Shown piece by piece: positions 3,249 through 43,560 of a stretch of DNA of 64,000 nt; within the stretch, counting starts at the first letter, position 1, and each line of letters opens with the position of its first letter. Below the pieces are notes generated by a model. It ran no database searches. It saw only the letters and a program-made list of their open reading frames with translations, and was not told where the DNA came from. Where the stretch lies: NCBI RefSeq assembly GCF_947495275.1, contig NZ_CANLYL010000010.1, forward strand, positions 62,001 through 126,000, read 5' to 3'. This DNA comes from an uncultured Roseobacter sp. Lineage in GTDB: Bacteria > Pseudomonadota > Alphaproteobacteria > Rhodobacterales > Rhodobacteraceae. Made by a program: the position numbers and the translations under genes.

Positions 3249-4249
3249 CGCAATATGAAACGTGGCGCGGGACCGAGCGGCAAAAACCCGACAGAGATCA
3301 GCCCGTCGTTGAGTGTGAGCGTCAAATCCAGCGCCTCAGAGTTACCGCCAAGACCGGCGAGGGCGGAGAGCGCTTGTTCAAACTGCGGTCGCAGGGCGCG
3401 CGGCAAAACGCCCGCATTTTCGGCCAGAACCAGCATGGTTCGCCAGTTGCGGGCTTGCACCTTGACAGTTCCGGTCGCGGCTCCGTCCGGGTCGATATCG
3501 AGGCTCGCCGCAAACCGCAATTGCAACGCGCCCCAGGCCGCTTCAGCCTGGTCGATGATGATCTGGCGCGGCTGTGGACGAGAAACCTCCAACGCTGATA
3601 TGTCCCAAACCCGATCAAATGTGACCGAGAGTCTGGCGTTGAAACTGTCAAAACTGACCGGCCAATGCTGCGGGATGAAAAGGGCCGCGCGGGGAATCTC
3701 TCCCGGACGCAAAGCGTCAACGCGCAGATTGAGGGCGTATTTTTCAGGTATCTCTTCATCCTGATGTAAGACCATTTGCGATTTTCCGCCCGCCAGGAAA
3801 TCACCGGCAACGCTATCCAGAAGCCAGGCGTCTGAAGATGTTTTCATCTTTTCCAACGCCATCGCGATCTTGGGTTTCAAAGAAACATCGACGCGCCCTT
3901 TTTGTACCAAGAGACGCGCGCGCCCTTCAGGGGTTGCCAACAAAATCGGATCACCGGGCAGGACAATGCGAATATCGCCAGGAGCCCAGACAGGTGCCCG
4001 GAGTTCCAAAACTGAGGTGTCTAAAGCAACGCCCGTTGACGGATCGGCCAGCGTCAAGTTCCTCAGAAGGAGATGCACATGGCTGGGAAATCCCTGAAAG
4101 CCAATGGCGGAGGTTTCTGCCTGCCAGCCGTCGACCTGCCGTTGAGCGAGCCATTGGTCGATACCTCGCACCGCCCCAAAGGTGGCGAAGGCCCACCAAC
4201 CACTTACTGCCAATGCCGCGAGCAAAACAAACCGGATCAGACGCCACAT
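3245..4249 (-). CDS. DUF2125 domain-containing membrane-anchored protein
   Basis: A 334-residue protein starting MWRLIRFVLLAALAVSGWW, a single N-terminal membrane anchor or signal anchor followed by a long beta-rich periplasmic region. The spacing and motifs (WLAQRQVDGWQ, GFPSHVHLLLRNLTLADP, LELRAPVWAPGDIRIVLPG, and a late LDLTLTLNDGLISVGFLPLGPAP) match alphaproteobacterial DUF2125 proteins, which have no established function and resemble AsmA-type envelope proteins in layout. The ATG at 4249 was chosen because the anchor begins there; upstream codons in frame encode no plausible protein. It lies divergent from the ChaC gene. Confidence 0.8.
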   Translation of the reverse strand: MWRLIRFVLLAALAVSGWWAFATFGAVRGIDQWLAQRQVDGWQAETSAIGFQGFPSHVHLLLRNLTLADPSTGVALDTSVLELRAPVWAPGDIRIVLPGDPILLATPEGRARLLVQKGRVDVSLKPKIAMALEKMKTSSDAWLLDSVAGDFLAGGKSQMVLHQDEEIPEKYALNLRVDALRPGEIPRAALFIPQHWPVSFDSFNARLSVTFDRVWDISALEVSRPQPRQIIIDQAEAAWGALQLRFAASLDIDPDGAATGTVKVQARNWRTMLVLAENAGVLPRALRPQFEQALSALAGLGGNSEALDLTLTLNDGLISVGFLPLGPAPRFILR

Positions 4250-40160: not shown

Positions 40161-41042
40161 ATGGACTTCCAATTCGATTGGGTGGACGCATTCACTGACA
40201 AGATATTTGGTGGCAACGGATGTGCGGTGGTTCATGGCGGCGCCGCGCTATCCAACGCAACATGCATGGCTTATGTGCGCGAGACGTCTCTGGTCGAATG
40301 CACCTTTACGGGTCCTTCCGAAGTTGCGGACTTTCGCGTGCGATATTTTCTGGCCAGCCGCGAAATCCCCTTTGCTGGACACCCCACAGTTGCCACCGTT
40401 GTCGCATTGCATGCCCGCGGTTTGATTGCTGATGGCGATCTGAAACTGGAGACTCAGGCAGGGATCATTCCGGTCAATGTGTCAGATGGCCGGGTGACAA
40501 TGACGCAGGTAGCACCGGTATTTGGCGCGCATGTGCCTGCTGAGATTGTGGCTCCCGTTGGCGCGCTGGAACCGGGTGATATCCTGGGCACGCCGCAGAT
40601 CGTTTCAACGGGCTTGCCCTTTTGCGTCACGGTCGTGAGGGATGTCGAGACACTGGCAGGGCTACGTCTCGATACCGACGCCATGAAGCGGTACGCGGCT
40701 CATGTCGGCGCGCCAGACGTTGATGCGATGGAGCCTTTCTGGGTCACCTTGTCGGGTGCGACGTCGCATGGGGATACCTTCGCCAGATTGTTACTGGCCC
40801 CGCCCAGCCCGCCAGAAGACGCCTTCACTGGTTCTGCGACCGGCGCAATGGCTTGTTATCTATGGGCAAATGGTCTGCTCCCCGACCGGGAATTCGTTGC
40901 CGAACAAGGGCATGGTATGGGTCGACCGGGTATGGCCACCGTCCGTATCTTGGGCTCGCGAGATGATATCAGGGGTGTTGAGGTATCGGGGCAGGGTACC
41001 ATCGTGATGTCTGGCCAAGTGTTTTTGCCGACCGTGTCGTAG
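40161..41042 (+). CDS. PhzF-family isomerase-like protein
   Basis: A 293-residue protein of the PhzF family (diaminopimelate-epimerase-like fold). Seen: the start DFQFDWVDAFTDKIFGGNGCAVVH, E46 in RETSLVECTFTG at the position of the catalytic glutamate, FAGHPTVATVVALH (FLASREIPFAGHPTV), FTGSATGAMACYLW and the tail GQGTIVMSGQVFLP. Most family members are of unknown substrate, and a role in phenazine synthesis is not implied here. It lies between two unrelated loci with convergent P450. Confidence 0.88.
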   Translation: MDFQFDWVDAFTDKIFGGNGCAVVHGGAALSNATCMAYVRETSLVECTFTGPSEVADFRVRYFLASREIPFAGHPTVATVVALHARGLIADGDLKLETQAGIIPVNVSDGRVTMTQVAPVFGAHVPAEIVAPVGALEPGDILGTPQIVSTGLPFCVTVVRDVETLAGLRLDTDAMKRYAAHVGAPDVDAMEPFWVTLSGATSHGDTFARLLLAPPSPPEDAFTGSATGAMACYLWANGLLPDREFVAEQGHGMGRPGMATVRILGSRDDIRGVEVSGQGTIVMSGQVFLPTVS

Positions 41043-41084: not shown

Positions 41085-42404
41085 TCACACGCGCTCCAGT
41101 ATGATTGGCAAACCCCCTTTGGGTTTTGGAATGGGCATGCGTTGCCAGACCGGTGCACGACCTGGCAGATGAATTCTGTTTTTTCGCAGCAAAGTGGCCA
41201 TGAAGAGCTTTACCTGAAGCGTCGAGAAATGCATGCCGATGCACTTGTGGGCGCCGCCGCCGAATGGCGTCCAGGCAAACTTGTGGCTCCGGTCCTCGAC
41301 ACGTTTTGGTCCAAAGCGATCAGGATCAAATTTGGTGGGGTTGGTGTAAAGCTCCGGCGACAGCATTGTCACCCCGGGGTTCAGCGCCAGCGAAGTCCCC
41401 GCGGGAATGTCATAGCCGTTCCAGTGAAAATCGCGTGTTGCAAGACGCGGAATAAACGGAACGGGCGGGACAAGGCGCAGCGCTTCGCGAAAGACATTGT
41501 TGGTCTGGGTCATTTTCGAAAGAGCATCTTCGTCCAGTTCGCCCTTGCCTAATGACGCGACCTCATGTGCCAGCTTGGCCTGCCACTCCGGGTGTTCTCC
41601 CAATGCTGCTATCATGACAGAAAGCGTGGTCGCCGTGGTGTCATGGGCCGCCATGATCAGCAGATTGAACTGATCCAGAATTTCGTCCTCGCTCCAGCTT
41701 TGGCCGTTTTCGTCCCGGGCAAGACACATCTGCGAAAAAAAGTCATCGCCTCCATTCGCGCGCCTCTCCGGGATCAGCGCGCGGAAGGTTCGCCGCAGAA
41801 AGTCACGTCCGCGCACGCCGCGCCACATTGGGGTGAAAGGCAGGGGCTGGCGGATTACCGCGAGAGAGGCGCGGATTTCATCGCGGATGGCGCGATTGAC
41901 GTCTTTGGCCAGATCACCGTCCAGCGGCAGCCCCATGAAAACAGCCCCTCCCATGCGCAAGGTGAGATCCTTGATCGCGGTGTAAAAGCAAAAGGGGGTC
42001 CCGATGGGCCAGGCCGCCAACAAGCTGTCCATCGCTTCGGTCATACGCAGTCTGTAGTCTTTGATGGCAGATGCGCGAAAGGCGGCTGTCATGATCCGCC
42101 GATTGCGTCGGTGATGGTCGAAATCCTGAAGCAGCAGGCCACCGGGGTAAATTCGTTTGAGCGCGTCCCACCCGCCTTCAGAGGAAAAAATGCGCTCACG
42201 ATCCATCAGCACCATTTCCAAAGCATCGGGACCACAGAGATTAACCCGCCAAACTCCCAGCATATTGGTCTTGTAGACGGGCCCGTAGCGTTGAATGTAG
42301 TCCTGCTGCGTGCCGTAGCTGTCGCGCGCGATGGTGAGCGTGTGGCCGACAATGGGCGGTGTCGGCGGTCCGGGAATATGCGACAGGGCGGCTTTGGTGG
42401 GCAT
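41085..42404 (-). CDS. Cytochrome P450
   Basis: A 439-residue soluble bacterial P450, similar in layout to the CYP120/CYP26-like group. Seen: a Pro-rich PGPPTPPIVGH hinge at 11-21, the I-helix AAHDTT (252-257), ExxR as EALR (307-310), and the heme loop FGGGAHKCIG (381-390) with the thiolate ligand C388. Neither a ferredoxin nor a reductase gene is near, except trxB 172 bases upstream on the same strand. The substrate is unknown. Its ribosome binding site (GAGG) is inside a long inverted repeat in the trxB-P450 gap, so translation may be controlled by RNA structure. Confidence 0.93.
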   Translation of the reverse strand: MPTKAALSHIPGPPTPPIVGHTLTIARDSYGTQQDYIQRYGPVYKTNMLGVWRVNLCGPDALEMVLMDRERIFSSEGGWDALKRIYPGGLLLQDFDHHRRNRRIMTAAFRASAIKDYRLRMTEAMDSLLAAWPIGTPFCFYTAIKDLTLRMGGAVFMGLPLDGDLAKDVNRAIRDEIRASLAVIRQPLPFTPMWRGVRGRDFLRRTFRALIPERRANGGDDFFSQMCLARDENGQSWSEDEILDQFNLLIMAAHDTTATTLSVMIAALGEHPEWQAKLAHEVASLGKGELDEDALSKMTQTNNVFREALRLVPPVPFIPRLATRDFHWNGYDIPAGTSLALNPGVTMLSPELYTNPTKFDPDRFGPKRVEDRSHKFAWTPFGGGAHKCIGMHFSTLQVKLFMATLLRKNRIHLPGRAPVWQRMPIPKPKGGLPIILERV

Positions 42405-42407
42405 GAG

Positions 42408-42480
42408 AAACCTCGCGGAGCAGGAAAATCTTCAATGCACCCGGGGCGGATGCCTGATGATTTATCCTGTCGCGAGGTTT
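42408..42480 (-). promoter_or_regulatory. Extended hairpin in the P450 leader enclosing its ribosome binding site
   Basis: In the RNA of the minus strand three helices nest. P1: AAACCTCGCG (42480-42471) pairs with CGCGAGGTTT (42417-42408), 10 bp. P2: CAGGATAAATC (42469-42459) pairs with GATTTTCCTG (42430-42421), 10 bp with one bulge. P3: GCATCC (42453-42448) pairs with GGGTGC (42442-42437), 6 bp with one G-U. The closing arm of P1 contains GAGG, the only Shine-Dalgarno for the P450 ATG at 42404. No T-run follows, so it is not a normal terminator. Confidence 0.55.
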
Positions 42481-42576
42481 GTGGTGCCTTAACCTACCGT
42501 ACGCACGCAACGGCTACGGGACGGCGGCGAAATCTGGTCGAGCTTCGCCCTCTGGCGGCGCGCGGCCAGAAGATGT

Positions 42577-43560
42577 TTACTCGGCTGCGCTATAGCTAAG
42601 CGGGGCTGCCTCTTGCGCATCTTCCTGTTCCGCCAGAAAACGCTCCGCTTCGAGCGCTGCCATGCACCCCATGCCCGCTGATGTCACAGCCTGCCTGTAT
42701 TTGTGGTCTGTCAAATCACCCGCTGCAAAAACACCGGGGATCGAGGTTTCTGTACTGTCAGGTTTGGTGACTACATAGCCGCCCATATGGGTCTCAAGAA
42801 CGTCTTTGACCAGCTCGTTGGAAGGCGCATGACCAATGGCCACGAAAACCCCCTTTGCGGGGATTTCGGTAATGTCACCTGTCTTGGTATGCTTCACTCG
42901 GACGGCTTCGACCCCCAAGGGGTTTTCTGTGCCAACAACTTCGTCCAACTCGTGAAACCAGAGAGGCTCGATCTTTGGGTTTTTCATCAGACGGTCGATC
43001 AGAATCTTTTCGGCGCGCAACTCATCGCGCCGGTGGACCAATGTGACCTTTGATGCGAAGTTGGTCAAAAACAGCGCCTCTTCAACGGCGGTATTGCCCC
43101 CTCCGATGACGACGATCTCCTGGCCTCGGTAAAAGAACCCGTCACAAGTCGCACAAGCCGATACGCCAAAGCCCTTGAACTTCTCTTCCGAAGGCAACCC
43201 CAGCCACTTGGCACGTGCACCCGTTGCCAGAATCACCGCATCGGCTTCATAGGTGGTGCCGCTGTCGCCTCGGGCGACAAAAGGTCTTTTCGTAAGATCC
43301 AGGTCGGTGATGATGTCACCGATAATTTCCGTACCCATCGCCTTGGCATGTTCCTGCATGCGGATCATGAGGTCCGGCCCCTGAACTTCGGTGTCGCCGG
43401 GCCAGTTTTCCACTTCGGTGGTTGTCGTCAGCTGCCCGCCGGGCTCAATCCCCTGAACCAGTATCGGGTTCAGCATGGCGCGACTGGCATAGACCCCTGC
43501 GGTATATCCTGCGGGCCCGGACCCGATAATAAGGACGCGTGTTTGTCTTGTATCGGTCAT
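42577..43560 (-). CDS. trxB: Thioredoxin reductase
   Basis: A 327-residue flavoprotein that passes electrons from NADPH to thioredoxin. Seen: the FAD-binding [18 protein letters not shown] (about 11-28), the redox pair C136/C139 in [14 protein letters not shown], the NADPH motif [13 protein letters not shown] and C-terminal [16 protein letters not shown]. Normal length. The start is set by AGGGGAACCAA. Same strand as the P450 172 bases downstream; divergent from an Lrp regulator. Confidence 0.96.

Follow-up and report, generated by a model that had tools for sequence, protein, structure and literature searches.

A conserved leader hairpin predicted to pair the Shine-Dalgarno sequence of a cytochrome P450 gene in Roseobacter

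The window, a stretch of 64,000 nucleotides from an uncultured Roseobacter sp., encodes a cytochrome P450 on its minus strand (41085–42404; PF00067, E 9.6e-68). The ATG start codon of this gene occupies 42402–42404 and opens an MP[TS][KR] N-terminus that is present in 18 of 18 congeners. Upstream on the same strand lies trxB (42577–43560; TIGR01292 above its cut-off), which provides context and falls outside the element described here; the gap between trxB and the P450 ATG measures 172 nt. The P450 gene was present in all 19 Roseobacter genomes compared, in each case with trxB upstream in the same direction, and the gap ranged from 106 to 399 bases. The longest gap (399 nt, locus L023) extends at least 198 bases beyond those of the other 18 species. 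When 394 genomes of the family were sampled, P450 relatives at E 1e-100 or better were found in 15 of them, two of these being Roseobacter. Elsewhere in the window, a gene for a Hint-domain protein (PF13403; 44269–45039, minus strand) sits beside one for an Lrp/AsnC-type regulator, the latter divergent from trxB, and a PhzF-like gene at 40161 on the plus strand is convergent with the P450 gene.

The minus strand from 42480 to 42408, AAACCTCGCG...CGCGAGGTTT, ends three bases 5' of the ATG at 42404 and folds into a nested hairpin (all positions that follow are on the minus strand). In the minimum-energy fold the outer helix comprises 10 bp, formed between a 5' arm carrying the anti-Shine-Dalgarno (anti-SD) sequence (42480–42471, AAACCTCGCG) and a 3' arm that holds the Shine-Dalgarno (SD) sequence (42417–42408, CGCGAGGTTT). 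A second helix, also of 10 bp, pairs the two parts of a 5' arm spanning 42469–42459 (CAGGA at 42469–42465 and AAATC at 42463–42459, separated by a bulged U at 42464) with 42430–42421 (GATTTTCCTG); it is indicated by double-changed pairs as well as by the fold. Helix 3 and its terminal loop fill 42457–42432, with double changes in three of six consensus pairs. The outer and middle helices coincide exactly with those of the original prediction; the inner stem, given there as 6 bp, consists in the minimum-energy fold of 4+7 bp with two G-U pairs. The GAGG SD at 42414–42411, 6 nt before the ATG, was said to be buried in the closing strand, and in the predicted fold it is indeed fully paired. All 19 species have a GAGG 5–8 nt before the ATG, within a CGAGG that is invariant among them. 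A further motif, GGATAA (42467–42462), is located inside the 5' arm of helix 2 and recurs as G[GA]ATAA in 19 of 19 species, with GAATAA in one.

The hairpin folds at −41 kcal/mol (z = −6.76), and none of 200 dinucleotide shuffles folded as well, which bears out the earlier impression of more symmetry than a random gap would hold. By fold strength the P450 leader ranked first (z −6.98) among 32 gene leaders, these being ATG-started ORFs hand-picked from 69 with mostly overlapping shadow ORFs omitted; the runner-up was the leader of the PhzF-like gene (z −4.09). When both strands of the window were cut into 1,488 tiles of 86 nt, −41 kcal/mol was reached by two, one of which was the P450 leader site. 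SD sequences were found for 16 of 29 window genes examined, and only that of the P450 gene was paired at 0.95 or above. No second copy of the hairpin was found in its own genome, where other DNA matches had E 0.87 or worse and the sole additional match in an RNA-model search was partial (E 3.97); a dispersed repeat or mobile element was rejected, the second genome matches being only weak. Rfam gave no match at gathering score in the window, and a search of eight relatives at E up to 5 returned three matches, none on the leader. An intrinsic terminator was also rejected, because the element lacks a T-run, as had been remarked before, and CTCATG follows the stem.

Conservation extends upstream of the hairpin. 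All 19 leaders share one layout of TTAA, G[GA]ATAA, a variable stem, CGAGG and ATG. Between TTAA plus one base and G[GA]ATAA there are 20 bases in 17 leaders and 21 in two; the script searched for this pair of motifs, so that only the spacing counts as a result. A promoter-like conserved block (block A) lies at 42514–42488 (GGTGTTGCGTGCGYRCGGTGGGTTAAG in relatives; GCCGTTGCGTGCGTACGGTAGGTTAAG here). In the column information, computed on 16 of the 19 leaders after dropping the near-copies L012, L013 and L025, the block reads GGTGTTGCGTGCGYRCGGTGGNTTAAGR and is followed by C (15/16) 11 bases, W 12 bases, an invariant A 14 bases and Y 15 bases beyond the first T of TTAA. The A, at 42478 in the window, is kept in 19 of 19 leaders. 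The block may be a promoter with an operator, and to our knowledge no sigma-factor consensus fits it. The conserved region from 42514 to 42478 contains a near-palindromic CGTGCGYRCG core. In locus L023 the left half of the block is altered and TTAA, GGATAA and the hairpin are kept. A search of the window's own genome at a limit of 3 mismatches gave one match to the block, namely the block itself with 0 mismatches, and a reversed control pattern also gave one. The exact two-block pattern occurred in 2 of the 394 family genomes, the only two Roseobacter in that sample, and block A in this exact form was rejected as a family-wide regulator site on this basis. The core of the block was also seen upstream of the P450 gene in L123 (GTGCGTACGCTGCCTTAA), a more distant relative that has trxB, and in L128 (GTGCGTACGCTTGTTTA), for which no trxB was found within 1.5 kb upstream; the block therefore seems to go with the P450 gene and not with trxB. 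The gaps of loci L011, L012, L014, L018, L019 and L122 contain hairpins rich in GC that are probably terminators of trxB; their 3' arm (GGG..TG) and the left edge of the block overlap. A putative upstream small ORF ending at TTAA, such as a peptide-dependent attenuator would need, was set aside as improbable on inspection of the substitutions: in the codon that precedes TAA the third base is constant in 16 of 16 sequences and the first two vary, a pattern that speaks against coding.

Sorting single folds by eye divided the 19 leaders into two classes. Class A (12 species, the window included) forms the three-helix hairpin, in which an anti-SD further upstream pairs with GAGG. In most of class B (seven species) GGA pairs with UCC just 3' of the SD, CGC-type bases are paired just 5' of it, and AGG stays in an internal loop; loci L024 and L027 differ in fold detail. 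An RNAalifold consensus of all 19 leaders, run before this split, contained no pairs. Class B forms one clade in the P450 tree (support 99/99, the bootstrap being not fully settled). Over both classes, 16 of 19 leaders had z of −2 or less; the same value was reached by 7 of 19 stretches starting after GGATAA and likewise by 7 of 19 stretches upstream of the leader. At 37 °C GAGG is predicted to be paired to at least 87% in 11 of 12 class A leaders and to at least 74% in all 12. For the seven class B leaders the prediction is that it is 26–74% unpaired. Class B would represent a remodelled, partly occluding fold that keeps the G[GA]AUAA and CGAGG motifs of class A. Terminal loops vary between species.

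To describe class A a covariance model, R1, was made from seven of its leaders, which were chosen for similar length after their folds had been seen and include three near-copies (L011–L013). R1 recovered the five left-out class A leaders at E 8.9e-9 to 3.4e-16 (the E-values are rough), and with it 12 of the 19 leaders fit one three-helix structure enclosing the GAGG SD. The window leader matched at E 1.8e-21, being itself one of the seven training sequences. Run against the seven class B and 13 outgroup loci, R1 gave best E-values of 0.28, 1.3 and 4.5, and all of these matches lay outside the P450 leaders. In an alignment of the 12 class A leaders that was fitted to the structure, 89.4% of cells were paired compared with 82.5% after shuffling. 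Double changes were found in 22 cells (8.2 shuffled; 0/500 shuffles as high) and in eight pairs (4.6 shuffled; 8/500 as high), and sliding the partner by 1–3 columns lowered pairing to 37–48%. The seven training sequences aligned with MAFFT, using a structure derived from them, bore out covariation only in part: double-changed cells numbered 8 against 3.3 in shuffles (1/500), but two of five measures did not rise above shuffles, namely double-changed pairs (4 versus 2.6; 120/500) and further pair types (17 versus 17.1; 354/500).

An alignment-free arm-swap test was performed with non-overlapping halves on ten of the 12 class A leaders, the near-copies L012 and L013 being dropped. Own halves paired at −25.9 kcal/mol and halves swapped between species at −20.8 kcal/mol (p = 6e-5). 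Helix 1 alone gave p = 0.021 and helix 2 alone p = 0.024; controls with block A gave p = 0.28 and 0.90. An earlier version on all 19 leaders, in which halves overlapped in short leaders, had resulted in p = 5e-5, and in p = 0.005 when the last 30 bases were set against those preceding GGATAA. The promoter-like block did not covary with the hairpin, and block A was rejected as a pairing partner of the regions around the SD and the start codon, since own combinations showed no advantage over swapped ones in class A, in class B or in the two together. Within class A, L016 is an exception, with z −0.99, 41 of 200 shuffles as good and arms that pair worse than swapped arms. For class B the swap test on six of the seven leaders gave p = 0.18, covariation was thin (two double-changed cells; 12/500 shuffles as high), and the sense strand folded better than the antisense in only three of seven. 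Compensatory changes among relatives had been named as the way to check the original prediction. By sequence comparison, such conservation of the SD hairpin holds in class A, 12 of the 19 species; in the other seven, which fold differently, it is weak or not significant.

The RNA can be assigned a putative 5' end. TTAA starts 14 bases upstream of the invariant A, and when class A leaders were folded from this A the first base of the proposed transcript was already paired in 11 of 12. Taken together, these two features point to 42478 as the putative start of transcription. Covariation of the 5' arm argues that this arm is transcribed, as does the weak fold obtained without it: in the window, an RNA starting after GGATAA had z −0.75, compared with −7.67 for the whole leader.

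On balance we favour the reading that the P450 gene is expressed from a promoter of its own and that a hairpin at the 5' end of its mRNA, by pairing GAGG, acts in cis as a translational brake, with translation low by default and relieved by something. Under this model the promoter would lie downstream of trxB, and the mRNA, with its first base at 42478 or close by, would open with a hairpin that stops a few bases short of the start codon. Base-pairing of the GAGG ribosome-binding site would keep translation low until a protein or small RNA, or competition by 30S subunits on the nascent transcript, provided relief. A fold at the RNA level, its covarying conservation in class A and the predicted SD pairing are shown by the sequences themselves, the promoter, the start site, repression and its relief being proposals. 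Consistent with a brake, opening GAGG is predicted to cost 12.2 kcal/mol in the window and 5.3–12.7 kcal/mol across class A at 25 °C.

Covarying arms by themselves would fit a DNA palindrome equally well, and a palindrome bound by a regulator had been among the options first proposed. We consider it very improbable that the inverted repeat is an operator for a dimeric regulator, as its three nested helices contain G-U pairs and bulges and vary in length. In addition, the sense fold is better than the antisense fold in 11 of 12 class A leaders (mean difference over the 12, 5.5 kcal/mol), and the anti-SD drifts from C to U, giving G-U pairs against a fixed GAGG, in 7 of 24 cells. The strand bias, combined with stem covariation, argues that the hairpin acts as RNA. 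A different objection would be that GGATAA is a −10 box and that the transcript starts inside the hairpin, so that the 5' arm is absent from the mRNA. The spacing between TTAA and G[GA]ATAA, kept throughout the 19 leaders as two promoter boxes might keep it, agrees with this proposal. We judge it quite unlikely nonetheless, because in class A covariation links the 5' arm to the arm with the SD, and because the conserved positions go on further upstream, as far as the invariant A and the block. Moreover, the base after the hexamer is never T (0/19; 0/16 in the column set), which is unlike a −10 box.

Accepting an RNA hairpin, it could serve mainly to shield the 5' end of the P450 transcript against decay, SD pairing being secondary; a processing or stabilising hairpin had been among the options first proposed. 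Such a stem needs a paired first base, as is predicted in 11 of 12 class A leaders for the proposed transcript, but protection leaves the coverage of GAGG by the 3' arm unexplained, and in five of seven class B leaders the fold starts 8–10 bases further on, counted from a start site that is itself a proposal; we regard this role as unlikely. An RNA thermometer of the ROSE or fourU kind, which would likewise have its SD in a bulged stem, seems most improbable. Predicted SD opening between 5 and 45 °C is 0.00 throughout in the window, does not exceed 0.17 in 11 of the 12 class A leaders and is constant near 0.25 in L014, and a prediction this flat makes heat an unlikely trigger. There is somewhat more to be said for a regulated switch, in which a ligand, protein or small RNA recognizes GGAUAA or CGAGG and opens or locks the hairpin, since G[GA]ATAA and CGAGG are fixed in 19 of 19 species while the surrounding stems change and even refold. 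However, none of four candidate alternative pairings covaried in 16 of the 19 sequences (p = 0.33, 0.40, 0.20 and 0.37), leaving a self-contained switch unsupported. The leader also lacks an Rfam match, has a single genome copy and differs between species in its terminal loops, and the fixed spacing of GGATAA from TTAA could be kept for DNA reasons. We therefore hold a regulated switch to be improbable. Of the original suggestion of an RNA switch for P450 translation, occlusion is the part that we retain; the switch is not supported by the alternative pairings or the temperature profile, and the fold in the seven-species sister clade is only partly occluding. This leaves a brake that acts constitutively, kinetic competition on the nascent transcript, or an opener working in trans through recognition of GGAUAA. 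A more specific version of the last, to which we give little credence, is a genus-specific riboregulator, in which the invariant G[GA]AUAA and CGAGG would be read by a protein or small RNA that opens the leader, and one clade would have rewired the occluding helix and kept the control.

The translational brake that we favour has several known counterparts. SD-sequestering 5'-UTR hairpins work by translational occlusion, as in the expression platforms of translational riboswitches, and share with the P450 leader a stable stem that immediately precedes the start codon and carries the ribosome-binding site in its 3' arm. In contrast to the hairpins of translational riboswitches, the P450 leader has no aptamer and no covarying alternative helix among the four tested. 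The rpoS leader contains an inhibitory stem that small RNAs open by base-pairing to its 5' arm. It resembles the P450 leader in its default-closed SD stem and in a sequence-conserved stretch in the 5' arm, and differs in its small-RNA partners, of which none is known for the P450 leader. ROSE and fourU thermometers are similar in having a bulged stem over the SD and differ from the P450 leader, whose predicted opening stays flat from 5 to 45 °C. In ompA-type leaders a 5'-terminal stem stabilizes the mRNA; the P450 stem would also lie at the mRNA 5' end, and differs in that it covers the SD as well. The P450 leader thus appears to work like other SD-occluding hairpins, so far for one gene of one genus in these data. 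Literature listings and abstracts, which is as far as our search went, returned nothing on this leader.

The leader is a concrete, covariation-supported case of likely translational control of a bacterial P450. It also offers a natural experiment: within one genus, two clades have different SD-hiding stems, and the short motifs stay fixed. Should the leader be regulated, its trigger would point to the purpose of the P450.

Outside the genus, SD pairing was 0.51 in L122, 0.94 in L123, 0.73 in L124, 0.70 in L128, 0.50 in L130, 1.00 in L131, 0.50 in L132 and 0.20 in L133; L127 had no SD by the rule used, and L129, L125, L126 and L134 were excluded. These values are not clearly above those of the 16 window genes (0.00–0.99), and we make no claim for the outgroups. 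The P450 match in L127 has one internal TAG and one internal TAA and may be a pseudogene. In Tropicibacter naphthalenivorans (L063), a 13-bp terminator-like hairpin with a T5 run, about 45 bases before the P450 ATG at 3998, ends one base before that ATG.
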